A DNA stretch of 64,000 nt from NCBI RefSeq assembly GCF_025699065.1, contig NZ_JAILWF010000001.1:87626-151625 (forward strand), given 5' to 3'. Every line of letters starts with the position of its first letter. Within the stretch, counting starts at the first letter, position 1. Below the pieces are notes generated by a model. The model did not search any database. It saw only the letters and a program-made list of their open reading frames with translations, and was not told the DNA's origin. Positions 9,619-46,025 of this stretch are shown piece after piece. This DNA is from Nitrosarchaeum sp. (lineage in GTDB: Archaea; Thermoproteota; Nitrososphaeria; Nitrososphaerales; Nitrosopumilaceae). Made by a program: the position numbers and the translations under genes.

Positions 9619-11466
9619 TTACACGCCTATTCTTTTAGCGCTTGTCCATGTGGCCTTTTTCTTTCGTAGTTGTTCCAGTATTGCTTTTAGTAGCAAAAAG
9701 TCTATTATCTGTTTAAAGCCAAAAACCAAAAAGCCTGCATGCCATAACAATTTAGGGTCTTCACCATCTATCCTAATAGCTAACGCAGACATTAGATAGT
9801 GAACTACGACAAAAATCAAAGATACCTGCAAAACATACAATCCATCCCCCAAGATTATTCCCAAAATCGCATTTGCGGTAGCCGTAAACCCAATAATTGG
9901 CGTAATTACCATCCCCAAAAACAGATACGGCAACGACAATCTTTGCAGATATCCAAATCGCGGATTAAACAATGCATCTGAATGTCTCTTCAAGACCTGG
10001 ATGTTTCCACGATACCACCTTTTTCTTTGAGCTACAAAATCATGCAGAGTATTTGGTGCCTCAGTATATGCAGTAGCTTTTGAGCTTCCCTGAGTAATCA
10101 AACCTGCTTTTAATAATTTAATTGTCTGATCAAAGTCTTCAACTATTGTTTCTTTGCCATAAATTCCAGCTTCTGCAAGATATGATTTTTTAAAAGCACC
10201 TAATGCTCCCGGAACAATGGTAATTGATCCAAACACATCAAAAGCTCGTCTAACTATTTGAATTCCAGTGATGTATTCTAAGGCTTGACACTTTGTAATC
10301 CAATTAACCCTGTTTCTTACTTTGATGTTACCTGCAACAGCTGCAACGTGTTCGTTTATTTCAAATCCTTTTACAATTTCTTTTAAGGAATGCCTTCCAA
10401 TAATTGTGTCTGCATCAACTATTACAATAATCTCTCCAGTTGCATACACTAGACCATAATTTAACGCAGATGCCTTTCCGCCATTTTCTTTATGCAGTAC
10501 TTTGATCTTGTCTTTGTATTCCATTGCAATGGATAATGTCTTGTCTTTGCTTCCATCATCGACAAATATGATCTCTTTTTTCGGATAGATTGTTTCTAGC
10601 AGTCCTTCTATTGTGTGTGAAATCACTTTTTCTTCATTATATGCCGGAATTATTATTGAGATAGTGGGAAATTCCTTTATGTCTGCCTGGTTATTCTCTC
10701 TGTGCTTACTTAGAACTGCCATTGGCACAAACAACATTGTCGACCAAAATGAAATTGTCATTGCCCACAGTAAAATTATTCTGATTGGGGATTCTAGTAA
10801 TGTGTATCCTTCATATGCAATCAATGTTGCAATAAGAAACGGAGAACCAAGTAAGAATATTAAAAATATTGACGGTGCACGCATTCCTGAAATATTTTTA
10901 GAGTATAACTTTTTACTTGCTCCAAGAACATGATATAGTGTGATGAATCCACCCAATCCCATAGCAATCATGCTTATTGGTCCTAAAAGAAAATAGACTG
11001 TCACAATTAAGAAAATAAAGATTGTAGCTGTTAGTAGAATTTGTACAGGGTCTTTTTTTATTTTAGATGGTACGTTAGATGTACTCTCTGTATTTTCATA
11101 TGTGTTTTTTATGTGTGATTTTTCCTCTTTAACTTTAGAGAGAGCATTAAAACAATCTGAATGAAACCATTCTTTATCTTGTCTTGTAGATTTCTCATTT
11201 AATTGAATATCTCTGTTGCATAGCGAGCATTTAGTTAGCTTTGGATTTAGGAATACTGATAATTCTTTTTTTAGCATATCTGTTTGTTTATCTTTTTTTA
11301 TCTCAATACTGTCTATTCCTAAAATTTTTTTTAGGTATTTCTTATCGGATTCAAAAATAATTTCTTTTTCTTTGATCCTTTTTAGAAGATATTGGTTTCT
11401 TCCAAAATCTCCTATGTTATTTGTAATAGCATAGCTGAGTTTTGAAATAATGTAATTTTTGTCCAA
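9619..11466 (-). CDS. Membrane GT2 glycan synthase with N-terminal Zn module
   Basis: Processive family 2 glycosyltransferase of the cellulose/PNAG/hyaluronan synthase type, 615 residues. Motifs: DDGS (303-306), DAD (351-353), ED (443-444) and QRKRW (480-484), enough for a polymerising active site. Transmembrane helices lie at about 143-182, 198-250 and 500-590. The N-terminal 110 residues are unusual: a helical stretch (GDFGRNQYL, SDKKYL) followed by a Cys80-x2-Cys83 ... WFH102-x2-Cys105 zinc-finger-like motif. The same module with identical spacing begins the KaiC-like protein at 35901. The neighbouring deacetylase-like gene suggests a cell-surface polysaccharide; the sugar is unknown. Confidence 0.88.
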   Translation of the reverse strand: MDKNYIISKLSYAITNNIGDFGRNQYLLKRIKEKEIIFESDKKYLKKILGIDSIEIKKDKQTDMLKKELSVFLNPKLTKCSLCNRDIQLNEKSTRQDKEWFHSDCFNALSKVKEEKSHIKNTYENTESTSNVPSKIKKDPVQILLTATIFIFLIVTVYFLLGPISMIAMGLGGFITLYHVLGASKKLYSKNISGMRAPSIFLIFLLGSPFLIATLIAYEGYTLLESPIRIILLWAMTISFWSTMLFVPMAVLSKHRENNQADIKEFPTISIIIPAYNEEKVISHTIEGLLETIYPKKEIIFVDDGSKDKTLSIAMEYKDKIKVLHKENGGKASALNYGLVYATGEIIVIVDADTIIGRHSLKEIVKGFEINEHVAAVAGNIKVRNRVNWITKCQALEYITGIQIVRRAFDVFGSITIVPGALGAFKKSYLAEAGIYGKETIVEDFDQTIKLLKAGLITQGSSKATAYTEAPNTLHDFVAQRKRWYRGNIQVLKRHSDALFNPRFGYLQRLSLPYLFLGMVITPIIGFTATANAILGIILGDGLYVLQVSLIFVVVHYLMSALAIRIDGEDPKLLWHAGFLVFGFKQIIDFLLLKAILEQLRKKKATWTSAKRIGV

Positions 11467-33438: not shown

Positions 33439-35661
33439 TCAAGTTTTGAATTTGGCAGGAATACCAACTTGGTCATCTTGGGTTAACCCCATCAAATACA
33501 TTAAATTATCTACATCTCCTTGATATGTAATTTTTTGAGAATTAATTGCCTCAAGAATTTGCAGTTCCCCTGCTATAATGGATTTATGGGTTTTAGTATC
33601 TAAGGTAATTTTGTATCGTGCATCTGCGTTATTTCCATCCTGGATTATCAACACATTGTTTCTGAAAATAAGTGTGAAGGATTTGTCAACATCTGGATAA
33701 TATACATGCATGATGGCTTTCACATTATCTGCTTTCTCTGATTTTAATTTTGTAGGTAATACTCGCAATACTTTTTCAATTGGAATCTCTTCCAAATCCA
33801 CGTAATTTAATTTTGTAGATTTTTCATCAAATTTTATTTTATCTTCCAATTCCAATGCTTTAGTTAACTCCAGTTGTCTTGCATCTAATGATAACACTCT
33901 TTGTCCTAATACACGTAATGTATTTGCCTTTAACAATTTAGCTTCCAAATTTTCAGGGTCTACGTACAACACATAAGTTACAAGTTCAGATGCCCATTCA
34001 TATTCACCATTCTTAATTGCGTTTCTAACTTCAAGTAGTGTGTTATCAATTCCTCCAAAGCCACTTACGATTTTAGAAGATCTTGTTTCTAAATCAACTT
34101 GATGTAAAAATGCTGCATCTTCTTCATACCAACCAACTGTTCCATAATAGATTTGTTTTACATTCCATGGAATCTGTCCTTTTGGATATGCAAGCCATGG
34201 ATGGTTTTCAAGTGTTGGAGGTAATTTAATCATGGCAGATATCTCATCTATTTGATATCCATTGTTTATTCCTCTGATTGTTTGATCATAAACATACTGT
34301 GTAGCATCTCTGGTTGAAACCAAAATATCTCTGACATTTTCTGTTCCAAGAACAGGTTTTACGTGGGATAAAATCAGAGATTGTGGTTTTAGTGGAATAA
34401 ACTCATCAATTATTTGCACATATGTCATAGGATTGTGATATTCCATACCACCAAGTATGTGATTATTTGGAAATATACCATATAGATTATCTCCGATTAA
34501 AAGGGATTGATCATCAGGAAGCCACATATAGATTTGTTCAGATGAGCTATCCCCCACATGGCCTAAACTCATCTTTACTCCAGAAATATTGAGATTGAAT
34601 TTATCTGAAAAGGTATCTGTTGGTGGAATATAATTAATACTGCTCAATGTTGGAGGAACATAATATTTAGAATTGATTTGATCTCCATTAGGTAATAAAG
34701 AACCCGATGTGTAATAATTTCTAAGTCCAGTGAATTGATTCAACATAATATTTTGCTTCACATAAAAATTCAAGTTATTGTCATGAGAGATAATTTCAAC
34801 ATTTTCGTCACCATACTCTAAAAATGCTTTAGTCCCACCAACATCTTCGGAATTGCCAGATGTGTAAATTATTGTTTTAACTGGTTTAGTTGTGGTTTTT
34901 CTAAATTCCTCAACTACTTTTTTTGCATTTTCATATGAGCTCAAAGTGTTTATGATTATGATTCCTTTTTCACCTTCAATCATCACACTGTTTGACGAAT
35001 CATATCCTACTGCTACCCATATTCGATCATTTACCTTATGAATTGCTGGAGGATATCTGTAATCATGTAATGTTAAAAGTTCTGAACCCATTACAGGTTG
35101 TTTTGACAAAGAAGGGATATCCATATTCTTTTTAGGAGAAATGATATTTGGGAGAATTACTGTTGTTGTGTTTTTTGAATTTATTTCTTCATTTACTTTG
35201 GGAACAGTTGTTTCTTGCCGGATTATTTCTGCCAATCCTAATTTTACCCATGATGCAGCAGTTGATGGACTTGTACAAAATGTATCCTTGTGAGCGAATC
35301 TAAAAACCAGAGTATATCCTTCACGACATTGGGAACTATCATTTATTGGAGTCTTTTTTGTTTGAGTTGGCTCAACATTTGTAACTCGCTCAGATATTTT
35401 TGGAATTTCTGTAGGTTGAATTGTAGCATTTTGAATAATTTCAGCTAATCCTAATTCTGCCCATCTATTTGCAGTGTCAGGACTCGTACATAGATATTCG
35501 TGACTTGATAATCTAAAAATCAAAATATTTCCTTCACGACATCCCGCTTGAATACTTTCTATGGATTCTTTTGAATCATGAGATGCAAAAGATGACTCAT
35601 TTACAGTTAAAGACAGTAGGATTGAAAAGGATAAGAAAATTAATCCTGTTTTTAGTTTCAT
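33439..35661 (-). CDS. Secreted alkylsulfatase-like MBL protein with degenerate metal site
   Basis: 740 residues with signal peptide 1-27. Two copies of a 38-residue module (41-78 and 112-150; CREG...FR...CTSP...W..LGLAEII) are followed by a metallo-beta-lactamase domain. Then come an alkylsulfatase-type dimerisation region (DATQYVYDQTIRGINNGY) and a C-terminal SCP2-like domain, the SdsA1/BDS1 order. The hallmark HxHxDH loop is YTSGNSED (266-273): all its metal ligands are lost. The later SHVKP His is kept. It is therefore probably a pseudoenzyme or works by a changed mechanism. Surface-exposed; substrate unknown. Confidence 0.8.
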   Translation of the reverse strand: MKLKTGLIFLSFSILLSLTVNESSFASHDSKESIESIQAGCREGNILIFRLSSHEYLCTSPDTANRWAELGLAEIIQNATIQPTEIPKISERVTNVEPTQTKKTPINDSSQCREGYTLVFRFAHKDTFCTSPSTAASWVKLGLAEIIRQETTVPKVNEEINSKNTTTVILPNIISPKKNMDIPSLSKQPVMGSELLTLHDYRYPPAIHKVNDRIWVAVGYDSSNSVMIEGEKGIIIINTLSSYENAKKVVEEFRKTTTKPVKTIIYTSGNSEDVGGTKAFLEYGDENVEIISHDNNLNFYVKQNIMLNQFTGLRNYYTSGSLLPNGDQINSKYYVPPTLSSINYIPPTDTFSDKFNLNISGVKMSLGHVGDSSSEQIYMWLPDDQSLLIGDNLYGIFPNNHILGGMEYHNPMTYVQIIDEFIPLKPQSLILSHVKPVLGTENVRDILVSTRDATQYVYDQTIRGINNGYQIDEISAMIKLPPTLENHPWLAYPKGQIPWNVKQIYYGTVGWYEEDAAFLHQVDLETRSSKIVSGFGGIDNTLLEVRNAIKNGEYEWASELVTYVLYVDPENLEAKLLKANTLRVLGQRVLSLDARQLELTKALELEDKIKFDEKSTKLNYVDLEEIPIEKVLRVLPTKLKSEKADNVKAIMHVYYPDVDKSFTLIFRNNVLIIQDGNNADARYKITLDTKTHKSIIAGELQILEAINSQKITYQGDVDNLMYLMGLTQDDQVGIPAKFKT

Positions 35662-35900: not shown

Positions 35901-37223
35901 TTGAACGATGATGAACTTGTCGCAAAATTAGAAGAAAGTATGCAACATAATTTGGGGGATTGGGGAAGAACCCAATACCTAATAGAAAGAATTCAAAAAG
36001 AGCAGGAGATTTTTCAATCGGATAAAAAATATCTAGATCGAATGCTAGCTGAAATTCAAAAAATTCATCAAAGGGATTTAGAAGGCAAGAATACAGAAAA
36101 AGTAAAACAACGAATTTTCGTTCAGGATTTAATCAAATGTGATAGATGTGAGTCAGAAATTGGTTTGGATCAAAGGGCAATAAGGAAAAAAAACTTTTGG
36201 TTTCACGAATTATGTTATAATGACATTCCAATATCCAGACAGATTGAAATTACAAAACAACCTATACATGAACAGACAAAAAAATATGACGATTATTTCA
36301 AAATTGAAGATAAGCCATTAGTGAATAAATTTTATCCATTTCAGATTATTTTTACATTATCTATGATGATTTCATTAATTGCATCAATCTACTTTCTCTT
36401 TGATAGAATTTTTTCAATTGTCATTTCCATTGTTTGTACTGCTCTCTTTATCGTAATCTATAAATCTCAATTTCAGATGTTTAACAATAAAAAATACAAC
36501 CAAACACATACATCATTAATTAAAACAGGCATTCCTGGTTTTGAATCATTGATTTCAAATGGCTTAAAGAAGAATAGCGCTATAATCATTTCAGGCCCAC
36601 CTGGCAGTGGAAAAACAACATTTGGCTTGCAATTCCTGTATTCTGGGGCACGTGACTTTGATGAGCCAGGCGTATACATAACAATGTCACAAAATATTGA
36701 TGAGATAAAAAATGACTGCAAATCATTTGGGTGGGATTTTGATGATTTAATCAACAAAGACAAAATCATGATGATTGATGCAAGACCGTTTAAGATTCAA
36801 GACGAGATTATTGGCAAAGATGATTCTCTGTACCGAGGAGAGCAGATGCCATTTGAGCATTTGACAAAGTTGTTGCTAAGCAGCATCAAAAGAATCGAAG
36901 CAAAAAGAGTGGTAATTGACTCTGTTACAATTCTTGCAATGCAGTATTTGGACAAATTTTACATGAGACAGGGATTGCAAGGAATGATTCAGGCATTAGA
37001 AAATTATGGCGTGACATCTCTGATAATATCAGAACATTCAGAAAACAACGAGATTCCTTTGGAATGGTTTGTTACATCAGGGATTATTCAAATGGATAAC
37101 CAAATAATAGAAAATACTCCAAGACAAACTATTCAAATCAAAAAACTTCGTGGAATCAAACACAGTCAGCAGATTCATCCAATAAGACTAGAAGTTGACG
37201 GCTTACATATCTTAGAAGCATAA
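35901..37223 (+). CDS. Membrane KaiC-like RecA-family ATPase with N-terminal Zn module
   Basis: 440 residues from the TTG at 35901, with a TATATATG element about 30 bases upstream. Residues 1-110 carry the GDWGRTQYL/SDKKYL helical block plus C80-x2-C83, WFH102-x2-C105 zinc motif, spaced exactly as in the GT2 synthase at 9619. Two membrane helices (about 146-166, 169-188) tether a KaiC-like ATPase domain (208-440) with Walker A GPPGSGKTT at 232-240 and a Walker-B-like VVIDSVTI. 512 bp of this domain are identical to the inverted copy at 44502-45013. Target unknown; probably a membrane-linked signalling ATPase. Confidence 0.85.
   Translation: MNDDELVAKLEESMQHNLGDWGRTQYLIERIQKEQEIFQSDKKYLDRMLAEIQKIHQRDLEGKNTEKVKQRIFVQDLIKCDRCESEIGLDQRAIRKKNFWFHELCYNDIPISRQIEITKQPIHEQTKKYDDYFKIEDKPLVNKFYPFQIIFTLSMMISLIASIYFLFDRIFSIVISIVCTALFIVIYKSQFQMFNNKKYNQTHTSLIKTGIPGFESLISNGLKKNSAIIISGPPGSGKTTFGLQFLYSGARDFDEPGVYITMSQNIDEIKNDCKSFGWDFDDLINKDKIMMIDARPFKIQDEIIGKDDSLYRGEQMPFEHLTKLLLSSIKRIEAKRVVIDSVTILAMQYLDKFYMRQGLQGMIQALENYGVTSLIISEHSENNEIPLEWFVTSGIIQMDNQIIENTPRQTIQIKKLRGIKHSQQIHPIRLEVDGLHILEA
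36580..37091 (+). repeat. 512-bp perfect inverted duplicate, copy A
   Basis: Checked line by line against the reverse complement of 44502-45013: no mismatch over 512 bases. It encodes the same 170-residue ATPase core in both KaiC-like genes. Both flanks diverge abruptly (residues before IIISGPPG and after SGIIQ). Copy separation about 7.4 kb, opposite orientation. Confidence 0.95.
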
Positions 37224-37282
37224 TCAAATATCAAAATATTTTATAATTTTAATCAAATTAAATAGAAAATTTGATGGTTTTC

Positions 37283-37906
37283 TTATATTCCGTATACTGT
37301 CTGAAGTATTGGACTTTGATTAATAACATTTTGTGTAAACTGGACATTTACTGTAACCTTGTTGTTTTTGATATCAATTTCCACATTGTCAAACAATGAC
37401 TTGTATTTGTCAGTCTTGCGTCCACTCGCAGATATCTCGTATCCATCTTTTATCAAGAGTCCATCTTCGATTAATGAATTGACTTTTCTATATCCTGATG
37501 TTTGAGGGATTTGTAATCTTTCGAGCATTTCCAAAATTGTCCATGACTCACCAATTGACGCATTTAGTATTTTTGATGTTTCATCATCACTGTATGCTTT
37601 TAAGATTGATTGTCCAATTGATGGCTCTGATATTGTAAATCTCTTTTGTGTCTGGTCTTTTTTTGATTTTATGCTGCACAGACTTTCAAGGAATTTTCTT
37701 TCTAGTCCCTCAGCTCCTGCTCCAAAAAATTCCCTCAATACAGAATCTAGTTTTTCAAACTCTTCCATTGACTGAGTTATTGATATACCATATCTCTCAA
37801 ATAATCTATCCTGTATCTTGTGAACCGTATTTTCACCAAGATTTTTTAGCATTGTTTTTTCAAGTGACTTTGCCAACAGTTGAGTAACGCCAGTCATGAT
37901 ATTCAT
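37283..37906 (-). CDS. Winged-helix transcriptional regulator-like protein
   Basis: 207 residues. The N-terminal 70 residues are helical (LLAKSLEKTMLKNLGENTV), and the C-terminal half has a winged helix at about 105-165 (NASIGESWTILEMLERLQIP, TSGYRKVNSLIEDGLL), then a short strand pair. The order resembles thaumarchaeal ArsR/MarR-like regulators. It directly precedes the RR gene in reverse order, stop to start about 36 bases, and may form an operon with it. Probably responds to the receiver. Confidence 0.8.
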   Translation of the reverse strand: MNIMTGVTQLLAKSLEKTMLKNLGENTVHKIQDRLFERYGISITQSMEEFEKLDSVLREFFGAGAEGLERKFLESLCSIKSKKDQTQKRFTISEPSIGQSILKAYSDDETSKILNASIGESWTILEMLERLQIPQTSGYRKVNSLIEDGLLIKDGYEISASGRKTDKYKSLFDNVEIDIKNNKVTVNVQFTQNVINQSPILQTVYGI

Positions 37907-37942
37907 TAGTTCATACTTTCATATTAATATTTTTTGGTTTAA

Positions 37943-38545
37943 TCAGGTTACAATCTCAGATAGTCTGCGAATGTGACTGGTGTCATTTCTGATTGCCAGA
38001 TTGATGGCTTTGCGCATCTCATCAGCATACTTGTCAAATTGCTTTTTGCTTTTTTTGATTATTTCACATTTTTCCACGACTGGCAATGCTTTGAAGTTCT
38101 TGTATTGCTCATAGTTAACTGTGCATGAATAAGATTTGGTTTCCCCTTTGAATTGATATTTTATGTCGAATGATGCCTGCTCTGAATTTCCAGTAAGACA
38201 GTCAATTATTGCTTTTTTTATTGCTTGGACAGCAAATGGTTTTCGAATTACCTGTACATTTAACGAGCTAAGAAATGGATGCATATATGCATTAGAATCG
38301 CCAGTAATTACTATTATCTTGGCATTAGAATTTATGTCCTTGATCTTCTCAATTGCATACAGTCCATCGTATCGTGGCATGTTCAAATCTGTAAAAACAA
38401 TATCTGGATGATGCTTTTTGTACATATTTACTGCATGACGGCCATCATTGGCAGTTGCAAGAACATTTACTTCGATCATACATAGCATATCACAAAATAC
38501 GCTAACAATATCTGGATCATCGTCCACTACGATACAACTTGTCAT
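37943..38545 (-). CDS. Response regulator receiver protein (RR1)
   Basis: 200 residues. Receiver domain 1-120 with acidic triad D8-D9-D10, phospho-acceptor Asp53 (VFTDLNMPRYDG), Thr81 and Lys102 (IRKPFA). The C-terminal 80 residues (FKGETKSYSCTVNYEQYKNF and a helix) form a small output of unknown function. It is similar to the receiver at 39199 (shared MPxYDGLYAI). Probably upstream of the winged-helix gene in one operon. Cognate kinase unknown. Confidence 0.88.
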   Translation of the reverse strand: MTSCIVVDDDPDIVSVFCDMLCMIEVNVLATANDGRHAVNMYKKHHPDIVFTDLNMPRYDGLYAIEKIKDINSNAKIIVITGDSNAYMHPFLSSLNVQVIRKPFAVQAIKKAIIDCLTGNSEQASFDIKYQFKGETKSYSCTVNYEQYKNFKALPVVEKCEIIKKSKKQFDKYADEMRKAINLAIRNDTSHIRRLSEIVT

Positions 38546-38610
38546 ATTGTATATACGACCTTATGACATAATAACTTATAATATATTCATACTTTTTATG
38601 AATATAAGAA

Positions 38611-38715
38611 TTGGTCAAAAAAGTTCAATGCCCTCATTGCTCAAAACGCCTGTCAGGGGAAGGCAACTTAAAAAGACATTTACGAACCATTCATAGATCA
38701 ATCAAGCAAGACTAA
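38611..38715 (+). CDS. 34-aa C2H2 zinc-finger protein
   Basis: TTG at 38611 to TAA at 38713-38715. VQCPHCSKRLSGEGNLKRHL continues with RTIH: C7-x2-C10-x12-H23-x4-H28, a textbook C2H2 finger with basic recognition helix, plus a basic tail (RSIKQD). It stops one base before the stop of the opposing RHH gene. Such single fingers occur in archaea and bind DNA or protein. Confidence 0.75.
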   Translation: MVKKVQCPHCSKRLSGEGNLKRHLRTIHRSIKQD

Positions 38716-38716
38716 A

Positions 38717-38860
38717 TTATTTCAGTCCCTTTTCTAGGATCTCATTTATGATTCTTGAAAAGCTGACAGAGGATGCAGATTCTCGCAGTTTTTTGGCTTG
38801 TAAATTTCGCAGTTTTTTTGCAATGTCACTGTTTAGCATTATGGTTATTCTTTCTGCCAT
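38717..38860 (-). CDS. 47-aa ribbon-helix-helix (CopG/Arc) DNA-binding protein
   Basis: Reverse strand ATG at 38860 to TAA at 38717-38719. MAERITIMLNSDIAKKLRNL starts with the typical RHH strand (RITIML), followed by two helices ending SFSRIINEILEKGLK. It would bind DNA as a dimer. The end is one base from the C2H2 gene stop, so two tiny regulators converge. Candidate palindromes lie upstream at 38896-38913 and 38937-38954. Confidence 0.75.
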   Translation of the reverse strand: MAERITIMLNSDIAKKLRNLQAKKLRESASSVSFSRIINEILEKGLK

Positions 38861-39198
38861 TACAAACCATACGATTAGATATTATTTTGAATTATGTAAA
38901 CTCACTTGTTTACCAAAATGTCAAAGAAATTAGAATATTTCCAAATATGGAAATGCATGTATGAAACATTACAATAAATAATCATTTAGAACGGTCTCTA
39001 GTTTTTTCGTTTAGTTTTTGGACTAAAATTGAGTGCTTTTCTAGATCTAATTTCAAATTGAAATGATAAGTTTATTCAAAAAAATCACAAAATCTGTTTA
39101 CGTCTAAAATTTAACTCAAAAGTAAGATTCTAGCATATAAAATATGTAATAAATTAATCTAACGCAAAATTAATAATATAATAATGTAATAAGAAAAT
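38861..39198. other. Regulatory gap with palindromes between RHH and RR2
   Basis: No gene of size. ATTTCCAAATATGGAAAT (38937-38954) is a palindrome with 7-base arms, and GTAAACTCACTTGTTTAC (38896-38913) has 5-base arms; both are upstream of the RHH start and could be its operators. The right end is a very AT-rich promoter for RR2. Confidence 0.45.
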
Positions 39199-39579
39199 AT
39201 GGTCAATTGTGTAGTCATTGATGATGATGAAATGACTCTAAAGGTTTTTTGCAATCTGTTAAACGACAATGAAATTAATGTTGTCGGAAGAGGCAGAAAT
39301 GGAAAGGAGGCTGTAGATTTATACAAAAAATACAATCCAGACATAATTTTCATTGATTTTGTTATGCCAAAATATGATGGGCTATATGCAATATTAAATA
39401 TCAAAAAATTTCACTCAGATGCAAAAATCATAATTGTTACAGGAGTAGACAAACTAAGTGAATCATACGTTCACGATATACTACAAGTAAGCGGTGTCAT
39501 TTACAAACCATTTGATTTAAAAACATTAAAAGAGATCATTGATACGACATTGTTAGAATTGAACATATTAGAGCAATGA
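39199..39579 (+). CDS. Response regulator receiver (RR2, CheY-like)
   Basis: 126 residues, receiver only. D8-D9-D10 acidic cluster, phospho-acceptor Asp53 (IFIDFVMPKYDG), Thr81 and Lys103 (IYKPFD). Close paralogue of RR1 (37943-38545) with no output domain; the shared block MPKYDGLYAI suggests recent duplication within this regulatory island. Likely a phosphorylatable single-domain signal protein. Confidence 0.9.
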   Translation: MVNCVVIDDDEMTLKVFCNLLNDNEINVVGRGRNGKEAVDLYKKYNPDIIFIDFVMPKYDGLYAILNIKKFHSDAKIIIVTGVDKLSESYVHDILQVSGVIYKPFDLKTLKEIIDTTLLELNILEQ

Positions 39580-39617
39580 AAATTTTTAATATTAAATTTT
39601 AGATTTTTGTTAAATAA

Positions 39618-39713
39618 TTAGATTTGAATTTGATTATATTTTATTAATTCACTTACTTTGTAAAATAAATTATTTATTATCTTGGAGATGTTTTTTATTT
39701 CAATAACAGGCAT
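39618..39713 (-). CDS. Possible 31-aa ORF in AT-rich gap
   Basis: Reverse strand ATG at 39713 to TAA at 39618. It reads MPVIEIKNISKIINNLFYKV, helical and plausible, but without further support. The rest of 39580-39818 is very AT-rich and appears to hold only promoter or terminator sequence. Confidence 0.25.
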   Translation of the reverse strand: MPVIEIKNISKIINNLFYKVSELIKYNQIQI

Positions 39714-39818
39714 GTAATAAAAATGGATTTTAAAATATTTACAAACTTGAGCTAGAAAATAAAAACTAGATACAAAACATCAGAAGAACTTATGAATATG
39801 TGAACTTCAAAATCATAT

Positions 39819-40013
39819 GTGAATCAATGCAAGAACATCTGCAAGAAATATCCGCAAGGAAACAGGAGTAGAATATACAGAGATGGAGGTAGTTTTTGTA
39901 GAAACTGTGACTATTATTTTGAAGAATCAATAATACGATGTCCTTGTTATAACACATTGGTAAGACATTCCACTAGAAACAGAAAAAATCATGAAATGTT
40001 GCAGAGAATATGA
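39819..40013 (+). CDS. 64-aa Cys-rich thaumarchaeal-type protein
   Basis: GTG at 39819. Two Cys pairs open the protein (MNQCKNICKKYPQGNRSRIY; SFCRNCDYYF), then CPCYNTL, and a basic tail (VRHSTRNRKNHEMLQ). The CKNICKKY start and CPC block resemble a multi-copy family of small zinc-ribbon proteins that I associate with marine thaumarchaea (recollection, not checked). Nucleic-acid binding is likely from the basic tail. Function unknown. Confidence 0.7.
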   Translation: MNQCKNICKKYPQGNRSRIYRDGGSFCRNCDYYFEESIIRCPCYNTLVRHSTRNRKNHEMLQRI

Positions 40014-40041
40014 GATAATTTGGAGGTTGAAGAGTTAGAAA

Positions 40042-40362
40042 ATGAAGACAGACTCTAAGATAATAATTTCAATTGACAAACAATTTTACAGTGAAAATGA
40101 TGAAATTAGAATTCATGTATGGTTTAACCACGAGTTTTACACATATGCGACATTGACTATTCTCAGTCCTGCAGGCATAACAATTGATTCTGCTGGATTA
40201 AAAACTGATACCAAAACTACTGAAACGTTTGCGTTTACCTGTGGTGGTCCGTTTATGTTTGAAAACGGATGCTATACCATCAGGGTCCAATGTGAAAATG
40301 TCATATCTGAAAATATGTTTGAATATTACAATTCCAAAAATAGACTCAAACCTAAATTGTGA
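40042..40362 (+). CDS. Hypothetical Ig-like (MG2-type) beta-sandwich protein
   Basis: 106 residues, beta-rich, no signal peptide seen. IISIDKQFYSENDEIRIHVW opens like macroglobulin/bacterial Ig-type domains, followed by TYATLTILSPAGITIDS and TFAFTCGGPFMFENGCYTI. Two Cys could form a disulfide. It is similar in style to domains in secreted thaumarchaeal proteins. The start at 40042 has no SD. Function unknown. Confidence 0.65.
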   Translation: MKTDSKIIISIDKQFYSENDEIRIHVWFNHEFYTYATLTILSPAGITIDSAGLKTDTKTTETFAFTCGGPFMFENGCYTIRVQCENVISENMFEYYNSKNRLKPKL

Positions 40363-40370
40363 ATAGTAAA

Positions 40371-40444
40371 TGCCAGCGGGGGGATTTGAACGCCCGACGG
40401 CCCGGTCTTCAGCCGAGTGCTCTCCCAGGCTGAGCTACGCTGGC
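40371..40444 (-). tRNA. tRNA-Phe (anticodon GAA)
   Basis: 74-nt cloverleaf on the minus strand. Acceptor GCCAGCG/CGCTGGC (7 bp) with discriminator A73; D-arm GCTC...GAGC; anticodon stem CTCGG/CCGGG with loop CTGAAGA giving anticodon GAA; 5-nt variable loop; T-arm GGGCG-TTCAAAT-CCCCC. T-stem pair 52-62 is C-C, a mismatch. CCA is not encoded. No intron. Confidence 0.95.
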
Positions 40445-40581
40445 ACAACAAATTTGCTTTAGCTTGAGGAATTAAAAGTTGTCTTTATCACCAAACATAG
40501 TAAAAAAACACAAGATCATGATGAGATAATCAGGGATTAAACAATTAATCAAGATGCAACTAAAATCAATAAAATGTAAAT

Positions 40582-40701
40582 TTAATCAGAGGATAATTTT
40601 TTCAGCTTATTTTGAACTGCTTCTTGTATTTCCTTTTCCAATTTTTCTTGTTCTTCTACAAGCATTTTCTTCATTGCCTTTTCGACATAGTTTTTACCCA
40701 T
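40582..40701 (-). CDS. 39-aa charged helical miniprotein
   Basis: Reverse strand ATG at 40701 to TAA at 40582. MGKNYVEKAMKKMLVEEQEK continues as one long Glu/Lys helix (EIQEAVQNKLKKLSSD), probably a coiled-coil monomer unit. No cysteine. Function unknown; the frame is clean and unopposed. Confidence 0.6.
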   Translation of the reverse strand: MGKNYVEKAMKKMLVEEQEKLEKEIQEAVQNKLKKLSSD

Positions 40702-40849
40702 TTTGCTTCAACATATTATGAAATAGGTAAGAAATAAGGACATCGAATTTTCATGAGAATTTCAATGTCATTATAGCAATTTATGCAATATGCATGATTA
40801 ATGTTTGGCGATTTGATCATAAATGAAAGTATTATTCATTAATTGCTAA

Positions 40850-41386
40850 TCAGACTTTCCAAATTATGTCTTTTTTTCCACTTCTTTTATTTAAAACACG
40901 CCCCAATACAAAAAAAAGATCAGATAAACGATTTACATACTTGATACAGTTGTCGTTGATTTTTTCTTCTTCACTTAGCATTATGATGAATGTTTCAGCT
41001 CTTCGTGTTACAGTTCGAATATGATGTAGTTGTGATGCTAAAATCGTTCCACCAGGCAAGATAAAATTGGTCAAAGGAACTAATTCGGATTCATATTTAT
41101 CAATATTTTTCTCTAAATTCGATATCATATCTGTAGTAACTCTATTTTTTTTATCTTCTAATTTAGGATTAGAAAGATCAGCTCCAATTACAAATAATTC
41201 ATTTTGAATTAAATTTAGTAAAATAGCAATATCTTTATCGATTTCATATGATTGTATAATACCCAACAATGCATTTGTTTCATCAATTGCACCGTACGCT
41301 ATAATTCGTGGGTTTGATTTTGATACCCTCAAATTACCTTGTAAACCAGTAGTTCCATCATCGCCAGTCTTTGTATATATTTTCAA
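40850..41386 (-). CDS. ATP:cob(I)alamin adenosyltransferase (PduO type)
   Basis: 178 residues. Makes adenosylcobalamin from cob(I)alamin and ATP. The PduO-type start IYTKTGDDGTTGL is the ATP-binding loop, GAIDETNALLGI the trimer contact, and TVTRRAE carries the conserved Arg/Arg-Glu of the active site. Thaumarchaea need adenosylcobalamin for methylmalonyl-CoA mutase in carbon fixation (group knowledge). Single-gene transcription unit on the minus strand. Confidence 0.92.
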   Translation of the reverse strand: MKIYTKTGDDGTTGLQGNLRVSKSNPRIIAYGAIDETNALLGIIQSYEIDKDIAILLNLIQNELFVIGADLSNPKLEDKKNRVTTDMISNLEKNIDKYESELVPLTNFILPGGTILASQLHHIRTVTRRAETFIIMLSEEEKINDNCIKYVNRLSDLFFVLGRVLNKRSGKKDIIWKV

Positions 41387-41571
41387 TAACGTATGAAAAA
41401 TCGATTAAACTATTATGTTGTTCGAATTATTTATTATGGCATACTTGTAAATGCAATAGTTGTACGGATTTTTCACATGTCATGATTCAGAATTTGATAA
41501 AAATCACAAAATAACTCAAATCATTATTGCAGATCTTAAAATCCATCATCATATTAAACAATTTTAAAGCC

Positions 41572-42102
41572 TTGATTATTGATTTTTTTAACACATCTGC
41601 AAAATTAAAAAAAATACCTCGTCAGGGATGGATTGATAAATTATTGATAAATGATCCAGAATCTGTAGCAGAACACACTTTTTCAATGGCAGTAATTGGA
41701 ATGATTTTTGCAGATTTAGAAGGATACAATACAGAAAAAATTTTAAAAATTATCCTATTACACGACATAGCAGAGGCTGTAATTGGAGATATCACTCCAG
41801 AAAAAATGCCAATACAAAGAAAAACAAAATTAGAAAATAATGCAATGAAAAAAATTCTCAGTAATTTACCAAAGAAGTTACAGAAACAATACAATGAACT
41901 TTGGATTGAATATCAATTAAATCACTCTAAAGAGGCTCAATTAGTTCATCAAATAGACAAATTAGAAATGGCATTACAGGCAAAAACCTATTCAAATGAA
42001 GGACATTCTGAAAAATCATTGGCCTCATTTTTTAAGACTGCAGAAAACGAAATTAGAGATCCAAAGTTAATAGAGATATTTAAAAAAATAGTATCCAAAT
42101 AA
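41572..42102 (+). CDS. HD-domain hydrolase (YfbR/HDDC2-like)
   Basis: 176 residues from the TTG at 41572, or 191 from a TTG at 41527; ATATTAAAC about 25 bases before 41572 favours the shorter form. The HD metal motif is intact: H in AEHTFSMAVIG, then LLHDIAEAVIGDITP. This matches the HD_3/5'-deoxynucleotidase YfbR-like family, which removes phosphate from nucleoside monophosphates. It precedes a short helical gene by four bases. Confidence 0.85.
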   Translation: MIIDFFNTSAKLKKIPRQGWIDKLLINDPESVAEHTFSMAVIGMIFADLEGYNTEKILKIILLHDIAEAVIGDITPEKMPIQRKTKLENNAMKKILSNLPKKLQKQYNELWIEYQLNHSKEAQLVHQIDKLEMALQAKTYSNEGHSEKSLASFFKTAENEIRDPKLIEIFKKIVSK

Positions 42103-42106
42103 CGAT

Positions 42107-42334
42107 ATGTCTGAAAAAAGCAAAGACAAATTAATTGAAGCGCAAAAACAAATCATAGGTATACTTTTTGAGGTAATCAAACGATTACAAGCAAATAATG
42201 ATCTTGATGATGAGTATTTTCAAATTATCTCATCTGAAGATAAATCAAAAAAAGAAAGACTAGAAAAAATCCTAATTGAGAGAGAAGAGAACGCAAAAAT
42301 TGTGGGACGTTTATTAGAGCAATTAGAAATTTGA
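42107..42334 (+). CDS. Hypothetical 75-aa helical protein
   Basis: 75 residues, entirely charged helix (EAQKQIIGILFEVIKRLQAN, SKKERLEKILIEREE). No Cys or membrane part. The start is four bases after the HD gene stop, so co-transcribed. Could be a small dimerising partner. Function unknown. Confidence 0.65.
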   Translation: MSEKSKDKLIEAQKQIIGILFEVIKRLQANNDLDDEYFQIISSEDKSKKERLEKILIEREENAKIVGRLLEQLEI

Positions 42335-42350
42335 TATTGATTTTAAAGTA

Positions 42351-42632
42351 CTAATCATCTGAAATAATTTTCAGTCTTGCTGTTTGTTCAAACTTGTCTT
42401 GAACATAGTGAGAAAGGTTGATCACTCGGACTCTTGTCTGCTTATTTGTCCAACTACCCTCATTTTCAAACCATGATTCAATATCATCAACATCATATCT
42501 TTCACCACTCTTTAGTATAGTTTTGAAAATTAATTTTATCTCTTCTATGTCTTGCTCTTTTAGATTATTTTTGTCCTCCACTAATGTGGTAATTTCGTTT
42601 AATTTTATAATTACATTGTTTGTAAGAGGCAT
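42351..42632 (-). CDS. Hypothetical 93-aa protein
   Basis: 93 residues. Helical N-terminal half (NNVIIKLNEITTLVEDKNNL), then RYDVDDIESWFENEGSWTNK and a C-terminal helix (RVRVINLSHYVQDKFEQTA). It could be a small winged-helix-like or protein-binding domain; no definite family. Convergent with the previous gene, its stop 16 bases away. Confidence 0.65.
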   Translation of the reverse strand: MPLTNNVIIKLNEITTLVEDKNNLKEQDIEEIKLIFKTILKSGERYDVDDIESWFENEGSWTNKQTRVRVINLSHYVQDKFEQTARLKIISDD

Positions 42633-42706
42633 GATTCTATCAAATTAAGAAGATATAACAGTCTTTTGAGATATTGTTTTTATAACAATCAAATCTTCTT
42701 TGAGTC

Positions 42707-43054
42707 GTGCAGTATTTTCAAGCCTTAAAAACAGGACAAAAAAGAGTGGCAGAAGCTAGAGAATATCTTAACAAACTGACTAATGGAAAAGCAATGCCTG
42801 CACTGGCACTACGAGATAACAAATCAAACGTCTGGGACCCAGTTGGTGAGGAAAATCTTTATGCATTTGTTGATGAATCTGCAGGATTTGTGTTAACAGA
42901 TAACAGCGGGTACATACTTGCTTTGGTTGACAAATATGGTATTTCTAAAACAATTGTTCAAGGGGTAACTAAAACACAAAAAGAAATCTTGGAGCAATCA
43001 TTTCAAAAAGACAACATTCCAGAATACAAAGGCAAGGTAACTCTACCAGTATAA
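42707..43054 (+). CDS. Hypothetical 115-aa protein
   Basis: 115 residues from the GTG at 42707 (leaderless). A helical N-terminus (FQALKTGQKRVAEAREYL) is followed by beta strands (AMPALALRDNKSNVWDPVG; LYAFVDESAGFVLTDNSGY; YILALVDKYGI). The mixed fold could be PAS- or SCP-like, but no motif is diagnostic. No signal or Cys. It precedes the OCD gene by 75 bases. Confidence 0.7.
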   Translation: MQYFQALKTGQKRVAEAREYLNKLTNGKAMPALALRDNKSNVWDPVGEENLYAFVDESAGFVLTDNSGYILALVDKYGISKTIVQGVTKTQKEILEQSFQKDNIPEYKGKVTLPV

Positions 43055-43129
43055 TTGAAATTTTTTTACCAAAAATAGTCAAATAAAATCAGCGTAAAGC
43101 TTTTGTTATCATCAGATTTAGAATAACAA

Positions 43130-44356
43130 TTGGCAAAATACACACAAGAGATTGAAGTAGACGGGCATCTTATTGACTCATCAATTTTAACAAAAATATT
43201 TGACAAGATAATGGATCTTCACGGAGAATTTCAAGTAGAAGAAATCAACATAGGAAAAAAGAAAAAAGACCCATCATATGCACGGTTATCAGTTACAGGT
43301 AAAAATCAAAAACATCTAGATGAGATTTTAGAAACAATTTATCGTGAAGGGGCAGTCTCAAAAATACAAAAAGGAATTTCATTAAAAAAAGCACCAAAAG
43401 ACATGGTAATGCCAGATGACTTTTACAGTACCACCAATAACCATACTCGAGTTTTTCACAATAAACAATGGATTCAAGTTGAAAATATGATGATGGATAA
43501 ATGCATTGTAGTAAAAAACAACAGAGCGTTTTGTGTCCCTGTAAGGGATGTTAAAAAAGGAGACAACATTATTGTTGGAGAAAGTGGAATAAAGATCACG
43601 CCACCTGAGCGTCCAAGAGAAGGTGTTAATGTTTTTGAGTTTATGGGAAGCTCAAGTTCCAGTGAAAGACCAACTCAACATATTGCAAAAAAAGTAGCAG
43701 AAGACATTTACAAGACAAAAAAGAACGGCGGAAAAATTGTAGTTGTTGGTGGTCCTGCAATAGTACATACCGGTGCAGCTGATGCCGTTGCAGAGTTGAT
43801 CAAACTAGGGTTTATTGACGGAGTTTTAGCTGGAAACGCTTTAGCCGTACATGATATTGAATATGCCACACTTGGAACATCGCTTGGAATGAATGTTCAT
43901 GATGCAACTTTGGCATATCGTGGACATCGAAATCATATGGAGACCATAAATGCTGTTTTCCGTGCCGGTTCAATTTCAAATATGGTTAAGACAAAAAAAT
44001 TAACACGCGGAATAATGTATCAATGTGTGAAAAATAAAATCCCATTTGTATTGGCAGGGTCTATTCGTGATGATGGACCATTACCAGATGTAATTACAGA
44101 TGTTGCAGAGGCACAAAGAGAGTACAAAAAAGTTCTCAAAGATGCAAACATGGTAATTATGATCTCTACAATGTTGCACTCTATTGCAACTGGTAACATG
44201 TTACCTGCAAACGTCAAAGTTGTTGTAGTCGATATCAATCAGCCAACAGTTACCAAGCTTATGGATAGGGGCACTTGGCAGGCATTAGGTATAGTTACGG
44301 ATGTTGGTGCATTTTTGCCAATGGTGTTACAACAGATTAAAAAAATGAAAAAATAA
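43130..44356 (+). CDS. Archaeal ornithine cyclodeaminase-type protein (LOR/SDH family)
   Basis: 408 residues, TTG start at 43130. The N-terminus (to about 120) is the conserved LOR/SDH-linked domain; the rest has a Rossmann core with GGKIVVVGGPAIVHTGAADA and GVLAGNALAVHDIEYA. This matches the archaeal ornithine cyclodeaminase/TIGR00300-type family (ornithine to proline plus ammonia), shared with cyanobacterial ArgZ-type enzymes. Thaumarchaea otherwise lack an obvious proline route, so this may be their proline synthesis step (inference). It converges with the KaiC-like gene, stops two bases apart. Confidence 0.8.
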   Translation: MAKYTQEIEVDGHLIDSSILTKIFDKIMDLHGEFQVEEINIGKKKKDPSYARLSVTGKNQKHLDEILETIYREGAVSKIQKGISLKKAPKDMVMPDDFYSTTNNHTRVFHNKQWIQVENMMMDKCIVVKNNRAFCVPVRDVKKGDNIIVGESGIKITPPERPREGVNVFEFMGSSSSSERPTQHIAKKVAEDIYKTKKNGGKIVVVGGPAIVHTGAADAVAELIKLGFIDGVLAGNALAVHDIEYATLGTSLGMNVHDATLAYRGHRNHMETINAVFRAGSISNMVKTKKLTRGIMYQCVKNKIPFVLAGSIRDDGPLPDVITDVAEAQREYKKVLKDANMVIMISTMLHSIATGNMLPANVKVVVVDINQPTVTKLMDRGTWQALGIVTDVGAFLPMVLQQIKKMKK

Positions 44357-44357
44357 C

Positions 44358-45095
44358 TCAAGGAGTTAATCTAGGATGTTGAATATGCATTCCATCCCCA
44401 TCTAAAACTATAGGATGAATCTGTTGACTGTGTTTTATTCCACGCATCTTTGTTACCTGAATTGTTCTTTCCATGGTATCTTCTTTTCTTGTATGTCTGA
44501 GTTGAATAATCCCTGATGTAACAAACCATTCCAAAGGAATCTCGTTGTTTTCTGAATGTTCTGATATTATCAGAGATGTCACGCCATAATTTTCTAATGC
44601 CTGAATCATTCCTTGCAATCCCTGTCTCATGTAAAATTTGTCCAAATACTGCATTGCAAGAATTGTAACAGAGTCAATTACCACTCTTTTTGCTTCGATT
44701 CTTTTGATGCTGCTTAGCAACAACTTTGTCAAATGCTCAAATGGCATCTGCTCTCCTCGGTACAGAGAATCATCTTTGCCAATAATCTCGTCTTGAATCT
44801 TAAACGGTCTTGCATCAATCATCATGATTTTGTCTTTGTTGATTAAATCATCAAAATCCCACCCAAATGATTTGCAGTCATTTTTTATCTCATCAATATT
44901 TTGTGACATTGTTATGTATACGCCTGGCTCATCAAAGTCACGTGCCCCAGAATACAGGAATTGCAAGCCAAATGTTGTTTTTCCACTGCCAGGTGGGCCT
45001 GAAATGATTATAGATCTATCTTTTTTTAATCCACCAGAAATTATAGAATCTAGTCCAGGAATCCCTGTTTTTACTTTGGAATAAGTATAATCCAT
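44358..45095 (-). CDS. Soluble KaiC-like RecA-family ATPase
   Basis: 245 residues, only the ATPase domain: GIPGLDSIISGGLKKDRS, then Walker A GPPGSGKTT and the Walker-B-like VVIDSVTI. It has no N-terminal zinc or membrane part, unlike its paralogue at 35901. The central 170 residues are identical to that paralogue. Its C-terminal tail differs (ERTIQVTKMRGIKHSQQ, ending RLTP). It follows the TrmB regulator on the same strand by 81 bases, so it probably forms an operon with it. Confidence 0.85.
   Translation of the reverse strand: MDYTYSKVKTGIPGLDSIISGGLKKDRSIIISGPPGSGKTTFGLQFLYSGARDFDEPGVYITMSQNIDEIKNDCKSFGWDFDDLINKDKIMMIDARPFKIQDEIIGKDDSLYRGEQMPFEHLTKLLLSSIKRIEAKRVVIDSVTILAMQYLDKFYMRQGLQGMIQALENYGVTSLIISEHSENNEIPLEWFVTSGIIQLRHTRKEDTMERTIQVTKMRGIKHSQQIHPIVLDGDGMHIQHPRLTP
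44502..45013 (-). repeat. 512-bp perfect inverted duplicate, copy B
   Basis: Reverse complement of 36580-37091 with no mismatch on line-by-line comparison. It lies inside the second KaiC-like gene in opposite orientation. Abrupt ends at both sides indicate gene conversion, recent duplication or recombination rather than slow divergence. Confidence 0.95.
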
Positions 45096-45176: not shown

Positions 45177-46025
45177 TTACAAATGAATGTTCTTTGAATT
45201 GGTCCAAAGAGATTCAAAGAGTAATTTCATTGAATATACAAGTGATTTTGAATTAGTCCACATTGCAAATGGTTCTGTTGTAGAGTTTGCATTTTTGGTA
45301 AAGAACAATAATTCAGAGTCATCTTTTAGAATAAAGCACAAGTGGTTTTGAATGTCTTTATCTAGTTTTTTGATATTTTTTCTTTCCAGATTATCAAATA
45401 TGTATGTAGTTTTATCTGAACATGCACTTAGTAATCTAAACTGCTGTTTTGACTTTACAAAGGATTCTAAAAACTCACCATGATACAATTTGATATAGTC
45501 TTTTTCAGAACCGAGGATTAAAAATTCATCTTTAAAGTTATCAGTCATTTCAGTGATTTTTGATTGAATTTGATTTGCACCTTGGAGCATTTGGAATTTT
45601 TCTTCAACTTCATCGTGTAATGAATCAAAAGTAGGAATGTTATCCCATAATTCAGATAAGCCTTTTTCCATATGTTCTAAAGATTTGACTCGCTCTTTTT
45701 CAGCATTTACTAAAATCCATATTGCTTTGTTTAATGGAGATGCTGTAAATTGAATCGGATGTTGAAATGTTGCAGAAACGATTCCTTTGTTTTGTAATGC
45801 TGATAGTAAATGATATGTTTCAGTTCTTGGTAATTTCAGTGCCTTGCATACTTCAGGTGCTGTCTTTGCACCGTATTTTCCAAGATAAATAAACACCTTA
45901 CTTTGATTTGATGTCAATCCATATTGCAAGAGTTCTGATTGAACTTTATCAATGGACAATTTGTACTCATACAACTGTGTATCTGGAGTAGAGTCAAATA
46001 TCGAAGTTTGTGTTTCTATGGTCAT
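45177..46025 (-). CDS. TrmB-family transcriptional regulator
   Basis: 282 residues. N-terminal winged helix (LLQYGLTSNQSKVFIYLGKY, then LPRTETYHLLSALQNKGI) of the TrmB type, a linker coiled coil (residues 90-150), and a C-terminal effector-like domain (KDEFLILGSEKDYIKLYHGE; LFFTKNANSTTEP). TrmB proteins in archaea respond to sugars or other small molecules. Upstream lies an AT-rich promoter with a GATCGGATCGATCG cluster at about 46088. It probably controls or shares its transcript with the KaiC-like gene downstream. Confidence 0.88.
   Translation of the reverse strand: MTIETQTSIFDSTPDTQLYEYKLSIDKVQSELLQYGLTSNQSKVFIYLGKYGAKTAPEVCKALKLPRTETYHLLSALQNKGIVSATFQHPIQFTASPLNKAIWILVNAEKERVKSLEHMEKGLSELWDNIPTFDSLHDEVEEKFQMLQGANQIQSKITEMTDNFKDEFLILGSEKDYIKLYHGEFLESFVKSKQQFRLLSACSDKTTYIFDNLERKNIKKLDKDIQNHLCFILKDDSELLFFTKNANSTTEPFAMWTNSKSLVYSMKLLFESLWTNSKNIHL

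Follow-up and report, generated by a model that had tools for sequence, protein, structure and literature searches.

An identical inverted pair of KaiC-like cores in Nitrosarchaeum is very probably the product of recurrent, domain-limited gene conversion

Why do two KaiC-like genes that differ at both ends carry in their middle, in opposite orientation, 512 bp without a single mismatch? The preliminary description of this Nitrosarchaeum locus named a phase-variable switch, ongoing gene conversion, a recent duplication and an assembly artefact as possible answers. Our comparison of the window (the whole stretch of 64,000 nucleotides analysed here) with related genomes points to the second of these. 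We consider it highly probable that the perfect repeat represents a KaiC/RecA-like core shared by two old paralogues and homogenised by recurrent gene conversion limited to that domain.

The repeat itself stands as first described: a base-by-base comparison of 36580-37091 with the reverse complement of 44502-45013 gives 0 mismatches in 512, far beyond what chance would produce, and the first mismatches flanking the left arm lie at 36579 and 37092. A repeat finder draws the arms at 36522-37091 and 44502-45071 (570 nt, 97% identity). This KaiC-core pair is the only inverted repeat of at least 60 nt in the window, and the 512-bp core occurs twice in the genome assembly (11 contigs, 1.598 Mb; the window sits on a 361-kb contig), both times within the window. 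Separately, positions 142-391 contain a pair of 109-nt direct repeats that are 89% identical and begin 141 nt from each other.

Both arms lie, as had been proposed, within KaiC-like ATPase genes (PF06745), here called LONG (440 aa, membrane anchored) and SHORT (245 aa, soluble), which are the only full-length matches to the KaiC model in the window's genome (G000; Table 1). The abrupt divergence reported beyond the arms is likewise seen, nucleotide identity between the genes being 68% in the N flank and 65% in the C tail. LONG consists, in this order, of an N-terminal helical "GDWGR" module, a CxxC-x18-HxxC motif that the alignment shows to be kept in the LONGs of two genera, two predicted transmembrane helices (residues 145-164 and 170-194 in a low-confidence structure model, mean pLDDT 51) and the KaiC domain. 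The same N-terminal module (E 1e-24), comprising a GDFGR helix region, CxxC..HxxC and hydrophobic helices, is observed in a glycosyltransferase family 2 gene at 9619-11466 (minus strand), which is also present in genome BD3; it looks like a membrane/zinc module common to these archaea for which Pfam has no model.

Table 1. Coordinates of the features discussed, in window numbering.
Feature	Position	Strand	Basis or remark
Alkyl-sulfatase-like gene	33439-35661	-	Divergent from LONG
LONG, membrane-anchored KaiC-like gene	35901-37223	+	TTG start; PF06745, 1.1e-56
CxxC...HxxC zinc-finger-like (LIM/zinc-ribbon-like) motif, LONG residues 80-105	36138-36215	+	Sequence; alignment
Predicted transmembrane hairpin, LONG residues 145-194	36333-36482	+	Sequence; low-confidence model
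Imperfect 5' extension of left arm	36522-36579	+	Apparently unconverted in G000, converted in G001
Left arm, homogenised LONG core	36580-37091	+	From just before Walker A to ~43 codons before the stop
LONG-type C-terminal tail	37092-37223	+	Apparently unconverted
Interval between arms, 7,410 bp	37092-44501	.	Collinear in G001; at gene level in G015
tRNA-Phe	40370-40445	-	
Cobalamin adenosyltransferase	40850-41386	-	
HD gene	41527-42102	+	
ArgZ-like gene	43130-44356	+	
SHORT, soluble single-domain KaiC-like gene	44358-45095	-	PF06745, 8e-62
SHORT-type C-terminal tail	44358-44501	-	Apparently unconverted
Right arm, homogenised SHORT core	44502-45013	-	Identical to left arm, 512 bp
TrmB-like regulator	45177-46025	-	Directly upstream of SHORT, same strand

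LONG and SHORT each score above the PF06745 family cut-off and carry a Walker A motif (GPPGSGKTT). Each has one KaiC domain, and neither shows the two domains (CI-CII) and the TFEE glutamate pair of KaiC clock proteins. At the position of KaiC's catalytic TFEES both cores read TMSQN (LONG residues 261-265, 36681-36695, and the matching bases of SHORT), so that ATP hydrolysis may be weak or lost with Walker A intact. Both tails keep a K-x-R-G motif (K415, R417 and G418 are invariant), which in KaiC lies near the subunit contact. Among the papers searched, none joins Nitrosarchaeum and KaiC.

The locus alignment with related genomes that the preliminary description suggested as a check proves informative. 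A one-contig genome of the same genus (G001) has LONG and SHORT in matching places and orientation with matching neighbours, is collinear with G000 inside the interval and on both flanks, and belongs to a different species, since aligned stretches are 91-93% identical. Here too the two cores match at all but 2 of 512 columns, one of the exceptions sitting right at the tract end, and they have sequence variants of their own: the G001 cores differ from those of G000 by about 6%, and at 30 sites both copies have changed together between the species. Core identity is 100% within G000 and 99.6-99.8% within G001 versus 94% between the species; at third codon positions, the corresponding values are 100%, 99.4-100% and 85%. 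Third positions are thus the same in both G000 arms over about 170 codons, whereas about 15% of them differ between the species.

The distribution of two-state sites follows the same division. Within the 512 columns of the core, all 30 such sites sort with the species and none with the gene; of those in the tail, 36 sort with the gene and 1 with the species (Fisher p = 3e-18). The observed runs of agreement were never attained in 20,000 permutations. Protein constraint does not explain this pattern, since 26 of the 30 species-specific core sites are third codon positions. The trees of core and tail are discordant as well. In the core tree, LONG and SHORT of G000 and G001 cluster, and a single LONG clade is rejected (AU p = 0.005). 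In the tail tree, which spans two genera, all LONGs separate from all SHORTs with support of 98/94 and a pairing of the G000 LONG and SHORT tails is rejected; against all four G000 and G001 tails forming one clade, the AU test on only 120 columns is not significant (p = 0.12). LONG and SHORT are on this evidence old paralogues whose duplication predates the species split. Greater similarity within than between species, homogenisation of synonymous sites, a duplication older than the species split and differing tract ends are what characterises concerted evolution. It is accordingly the gene conversion option of the preliminary description that is singled out by the species-wise sites, the discordant trees and the renewed homogenisation in G001.

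A third species (G015) is assembled in pieces that fit the same picture. The last 120 bases of the contig that carries the LONG N-terminus match SHORT perfectly, an overlap that begins just before Walker A, within a few bases of the tract start in G000. A 5,268-bp contig (C6) runs from the last part of the LONG tail (..VDGLHIFEF, then the stop) through tRNA-Phe, cobalamin adenosyltransferase, the HD gene, two small genes and ArgZ into the SHORT tail, where it directly abuts one end of the contig that carries SHORT and TrmB. G015 seems to have the same inverted layout, its arms having been collapsed by the assembler; identity of its LONG core past the 120 bp would follow from the collapsed contig, the core not being assembled separately. 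Judging from the contig ends, the tract in G015 would extend further into the tail, to the IHP codons. Since the N-terminal half of LONG is only 45% identical between G015 and the window, the LONG/SHORT pair has been together for long. Conversion appears to have operated in two Nitrosarchaeum-like species at the least and most probably in three, and recently in the lineage of the window.

The direction of copying can be read from residues that tell the two genes apart. Six residues of the core distinguish the other genus's LONGs from all SHORTs, and at every one of them LONG of both G000 and G001 has the SHORT type. This shows that the middle of LONG has been overwritten by SHORT sequence, with SHORT as the probable source of the core. 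The tail of both LONGs has LONG-type residues at 200-203 and 206 and SHORT-type residues at the weakly diagnostic positions 207 and 213; residue 27, ahead of the core, is of LONG type in G000 LONG and of SHORT type in G001 LONG. The 3' end of the tract lies at about 37091 in both species and the 5' end at 36580 in G000 and at 36520 in G001 (window numbering), so that the conversion events were independent. Identity of LONG and SHORT 5' of the core is 95% in G001 versus 68% in G000, and a further or longer tract in G001 would have extended to the start of the domain. With a bound on divergence of about 1.8% (95% limit for 0/170) and a steady clock assumed, the last conversion in G000 would be no older than about one eighth of the time that has passed since the species split.

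What lies between the arms was labelled a regulatory segment, and this holds for part of it. Near the left arm we observe a winged-helix-like gene and two response regulators, as the label implies, but much of the interval is housekeeping in nature: onward follow tRNA-Phe, cobalamin adenosyltransferase, an HD-domain/YfbR-like phosphohydrolase, two small conserved genes and an ArgZ/LOR-SDH-like enzyme. The stretch from LONG to tRNA-Phe (37224-40369; winged helix, two response regulators and small ORFs) varies between species: G001 lacks one response regulator, and in G015 neither the winged-helix gene nor either response regulator is present there. The interval is therefore not a conserved regulatory cassette. 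Among the neighbours, TrmB adjoins SHORT wherever SHORT is intact and the contig reaches far enough; the alkyl-sulfatase-like gene adjoins LONG also in G015 and in the other genus and is absent in G001.

LONG has a narrow distribution. Among 250 genomes searched, it is found in G000, G001, G015 and a set of genomes of one other genus, which includes bins named Nitrosopumilus, and hence in a minority of the family; a scan with the LONG protein over named genome contigs gave no match. The corresponding scan with SHORT matched, as close named relatives, Nitrosarchaeum metagenome bins and Nitrosarchaeum sp. BD3, which makes this genus the most likely source of the window. In seven genomes of the other genus with both genes assembled, the cores are 69-75% identical (45-57% at third positions), and no recent conversion between LONG and SHORT appears to have occurred there. 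Where both genes of that genus are on one contig (G081, G091 and G222), they lie 92-99 kb apart. Gene conversion depends on distance and similarity, and the association of closeness with conversion fits this dependence, with distance being confounded with genus.

Genomes without LONG have tRNA-Phe, cobalamin adenosyltransferase, HD, two small genes, ArgZ, SHORT and TrmB, in the same order where contigs allow. Two genomes of the window's genus, G003 (99% complete) and G006 (96% complete), gave no match to either SHORT or LONG, so that SHORT seems dispensable in some species. In BD3 (G004), the first 103 residues of SHORT are missing and its neighbour is not TrmB (L037, ~9590). We rejected a crossover as the origin of this gene, because the junction upstream is with unrelated histidine-kinase and gatB-like genes, not LONG; SHORT was cut there by a separate rearrangement. 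Contig breaks in G013 and G010, considered as candidate repeat collapses, were set aside, as no LONG turned up in either and G013 has two different contigs with TrmB and SHORT (C202 and C103; L034 and L035), which suggests that the bin is a mixture of strains.

Two perfect 512-bp inverted arms at a distance of 7.4 kb offer homologous recombination a good substrate, and a crossover within the core would exchange the tails of LONG and SHORT while flipping the segment between them. A phase-variable switch that yields two protein forms in this manner, as the preliminary description had it, is nevertheless very improbable, since every genome examined has one gene order and one pairing of N-terminus with tail. 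No inverted orientation is seen in the assemblies of G000 and G001, which agree inside the segment and on both flanks, or in the contig ends of G015, which fit the same orientation; assemblies such as these might miss a low-frequency flip. In each complete LONG/SHORT pair, N-terminus and tail are of matching type, a link that a single retained crossover in the core would break and that goes back to before the genera split, and ArgZ adjoins the SHORT tail even in genomes without LONG. A search of the window for tyrosine recombinases (PF00589) found none, the nearest on the contig being about 103 kb away, although homologous recombination would need none. Moreover, the segment includes genes for a tRNA and for enzymes, and we see no sign of a promoter switch.

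Short-read assemblers can collapse repeats of this kind, as seemingly happened in G015, and an assembler could have copied one arm into the place of the other. We find such an artefact extremely unlikely, because the independently assembled single contig of G001, from another species, has the same layout and a different but homogenised core with its own variants in both arms, and the breaks between the G015 contigs coincide with the expected ends of a true repeat. That a recent duplication of a gene fragment made both copies, which the perfect identity on its own would fit, can be practically dismissed, since the paralogues are older than the genus and remain different from each other beyond the core: both are full genes with distinct N-termini and tails, form an orthologous pair in the same places in G001, and fall into separate families in the other genus, the tails forming two clades across both genera.

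Returning to gene conversion, we envisage homologous recombination between the inverted LONG and SHORT genes about 7.4 kb apart that would be resolved without a retained crossover. The core would be copied repeatedly, mostly from SHORT to LONG, and the N-terminal module and C-terminal tail would keep their separate histories. RadA-type repair is the cell's own homologous recombination, and the route might be RadA-dependent non-crossover repair, or crossovers might be counter-selected. Selection for a common ATP-binding, ring-forming core may help to retain the identity. KaiC domains form rings, and with a shared core LONG and SHORT could mix in one ring. It is also conceivable, if unlikely, that mixed LONG/SHORT membrane rings are themselves selected for, that the inverted layout is retained because it refreshes the cores without gene loss, and that in a few cells rare crossovers invert the segment and give rise to proteins with exchanged tails. 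The data are explained equally well by neutral conversion between close copies.

Domain-limited gene conversion, as proposed here, would give ammonia-oxidising archaea a natural example of the process, together with an outgroup genus whose copies of the two genes are widely separated and divergent in sequence. It implies that a soluble paralogue can supply the ATP-binding core of a membrane-bound protein, and it makes mixed LONG/SHORT rings a testable prediction. Trees of KaiC-like proteins built from the core alone would give the wrong gene history.

The closest precedent is the pair mtrA-1 and mtrA-2 of Methanococcales and Methanomicrobiales, in which mtrA-2 is overwritten from mtrA-1 in the shared domain only (PMC4632066). 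Like LONG and SHORT, these are archaeal paralogues that differ in a transmembrane part and have a shared domain homogenised over the long term; unlike them, they lie in one operon and serve methanogenesis, whereas LONG and SHORT are inverted, 7.4 kb apart and separated by unrelated genes, with a duration indicated for three species of one genus (PMC4632066). Conversions between the release factors RF1 and RF2, known from two separate bacterial cases with opposite directions, are similarly limited to the functionally common domain (domain 3) and leave the specificity domains distinct, while conversion of LONG and SHORT appears recurrent, recent and archaeal (PMC4530459).

Many cases of long-lasting concerted evolution in the prokaryotic LRCE-DB set are complex-forming or homopolymeric proteins, and there, as here, paralogues are closer within a species than to their orthologues, at synonymous sites too; that survey covers full-length concerted evolution, whereas in LONG and SHORT it is limited to part of the gene (PMC6053082). 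Invertible-segment phase switches such as the hsdS inversions resemble our locus in that homologous stretches of coding sequence lie in inverted orientation, so that the ends of genes could be exchanged, but LONG and SHORT differ from them in that no inverted state and no nearby tyrosine recombinase is seen and the tails stay linked to their own N-termini (PMC4948785). Rather than a demonstrated genetic switch, LONG and SHORT are a clean new case of a known process.
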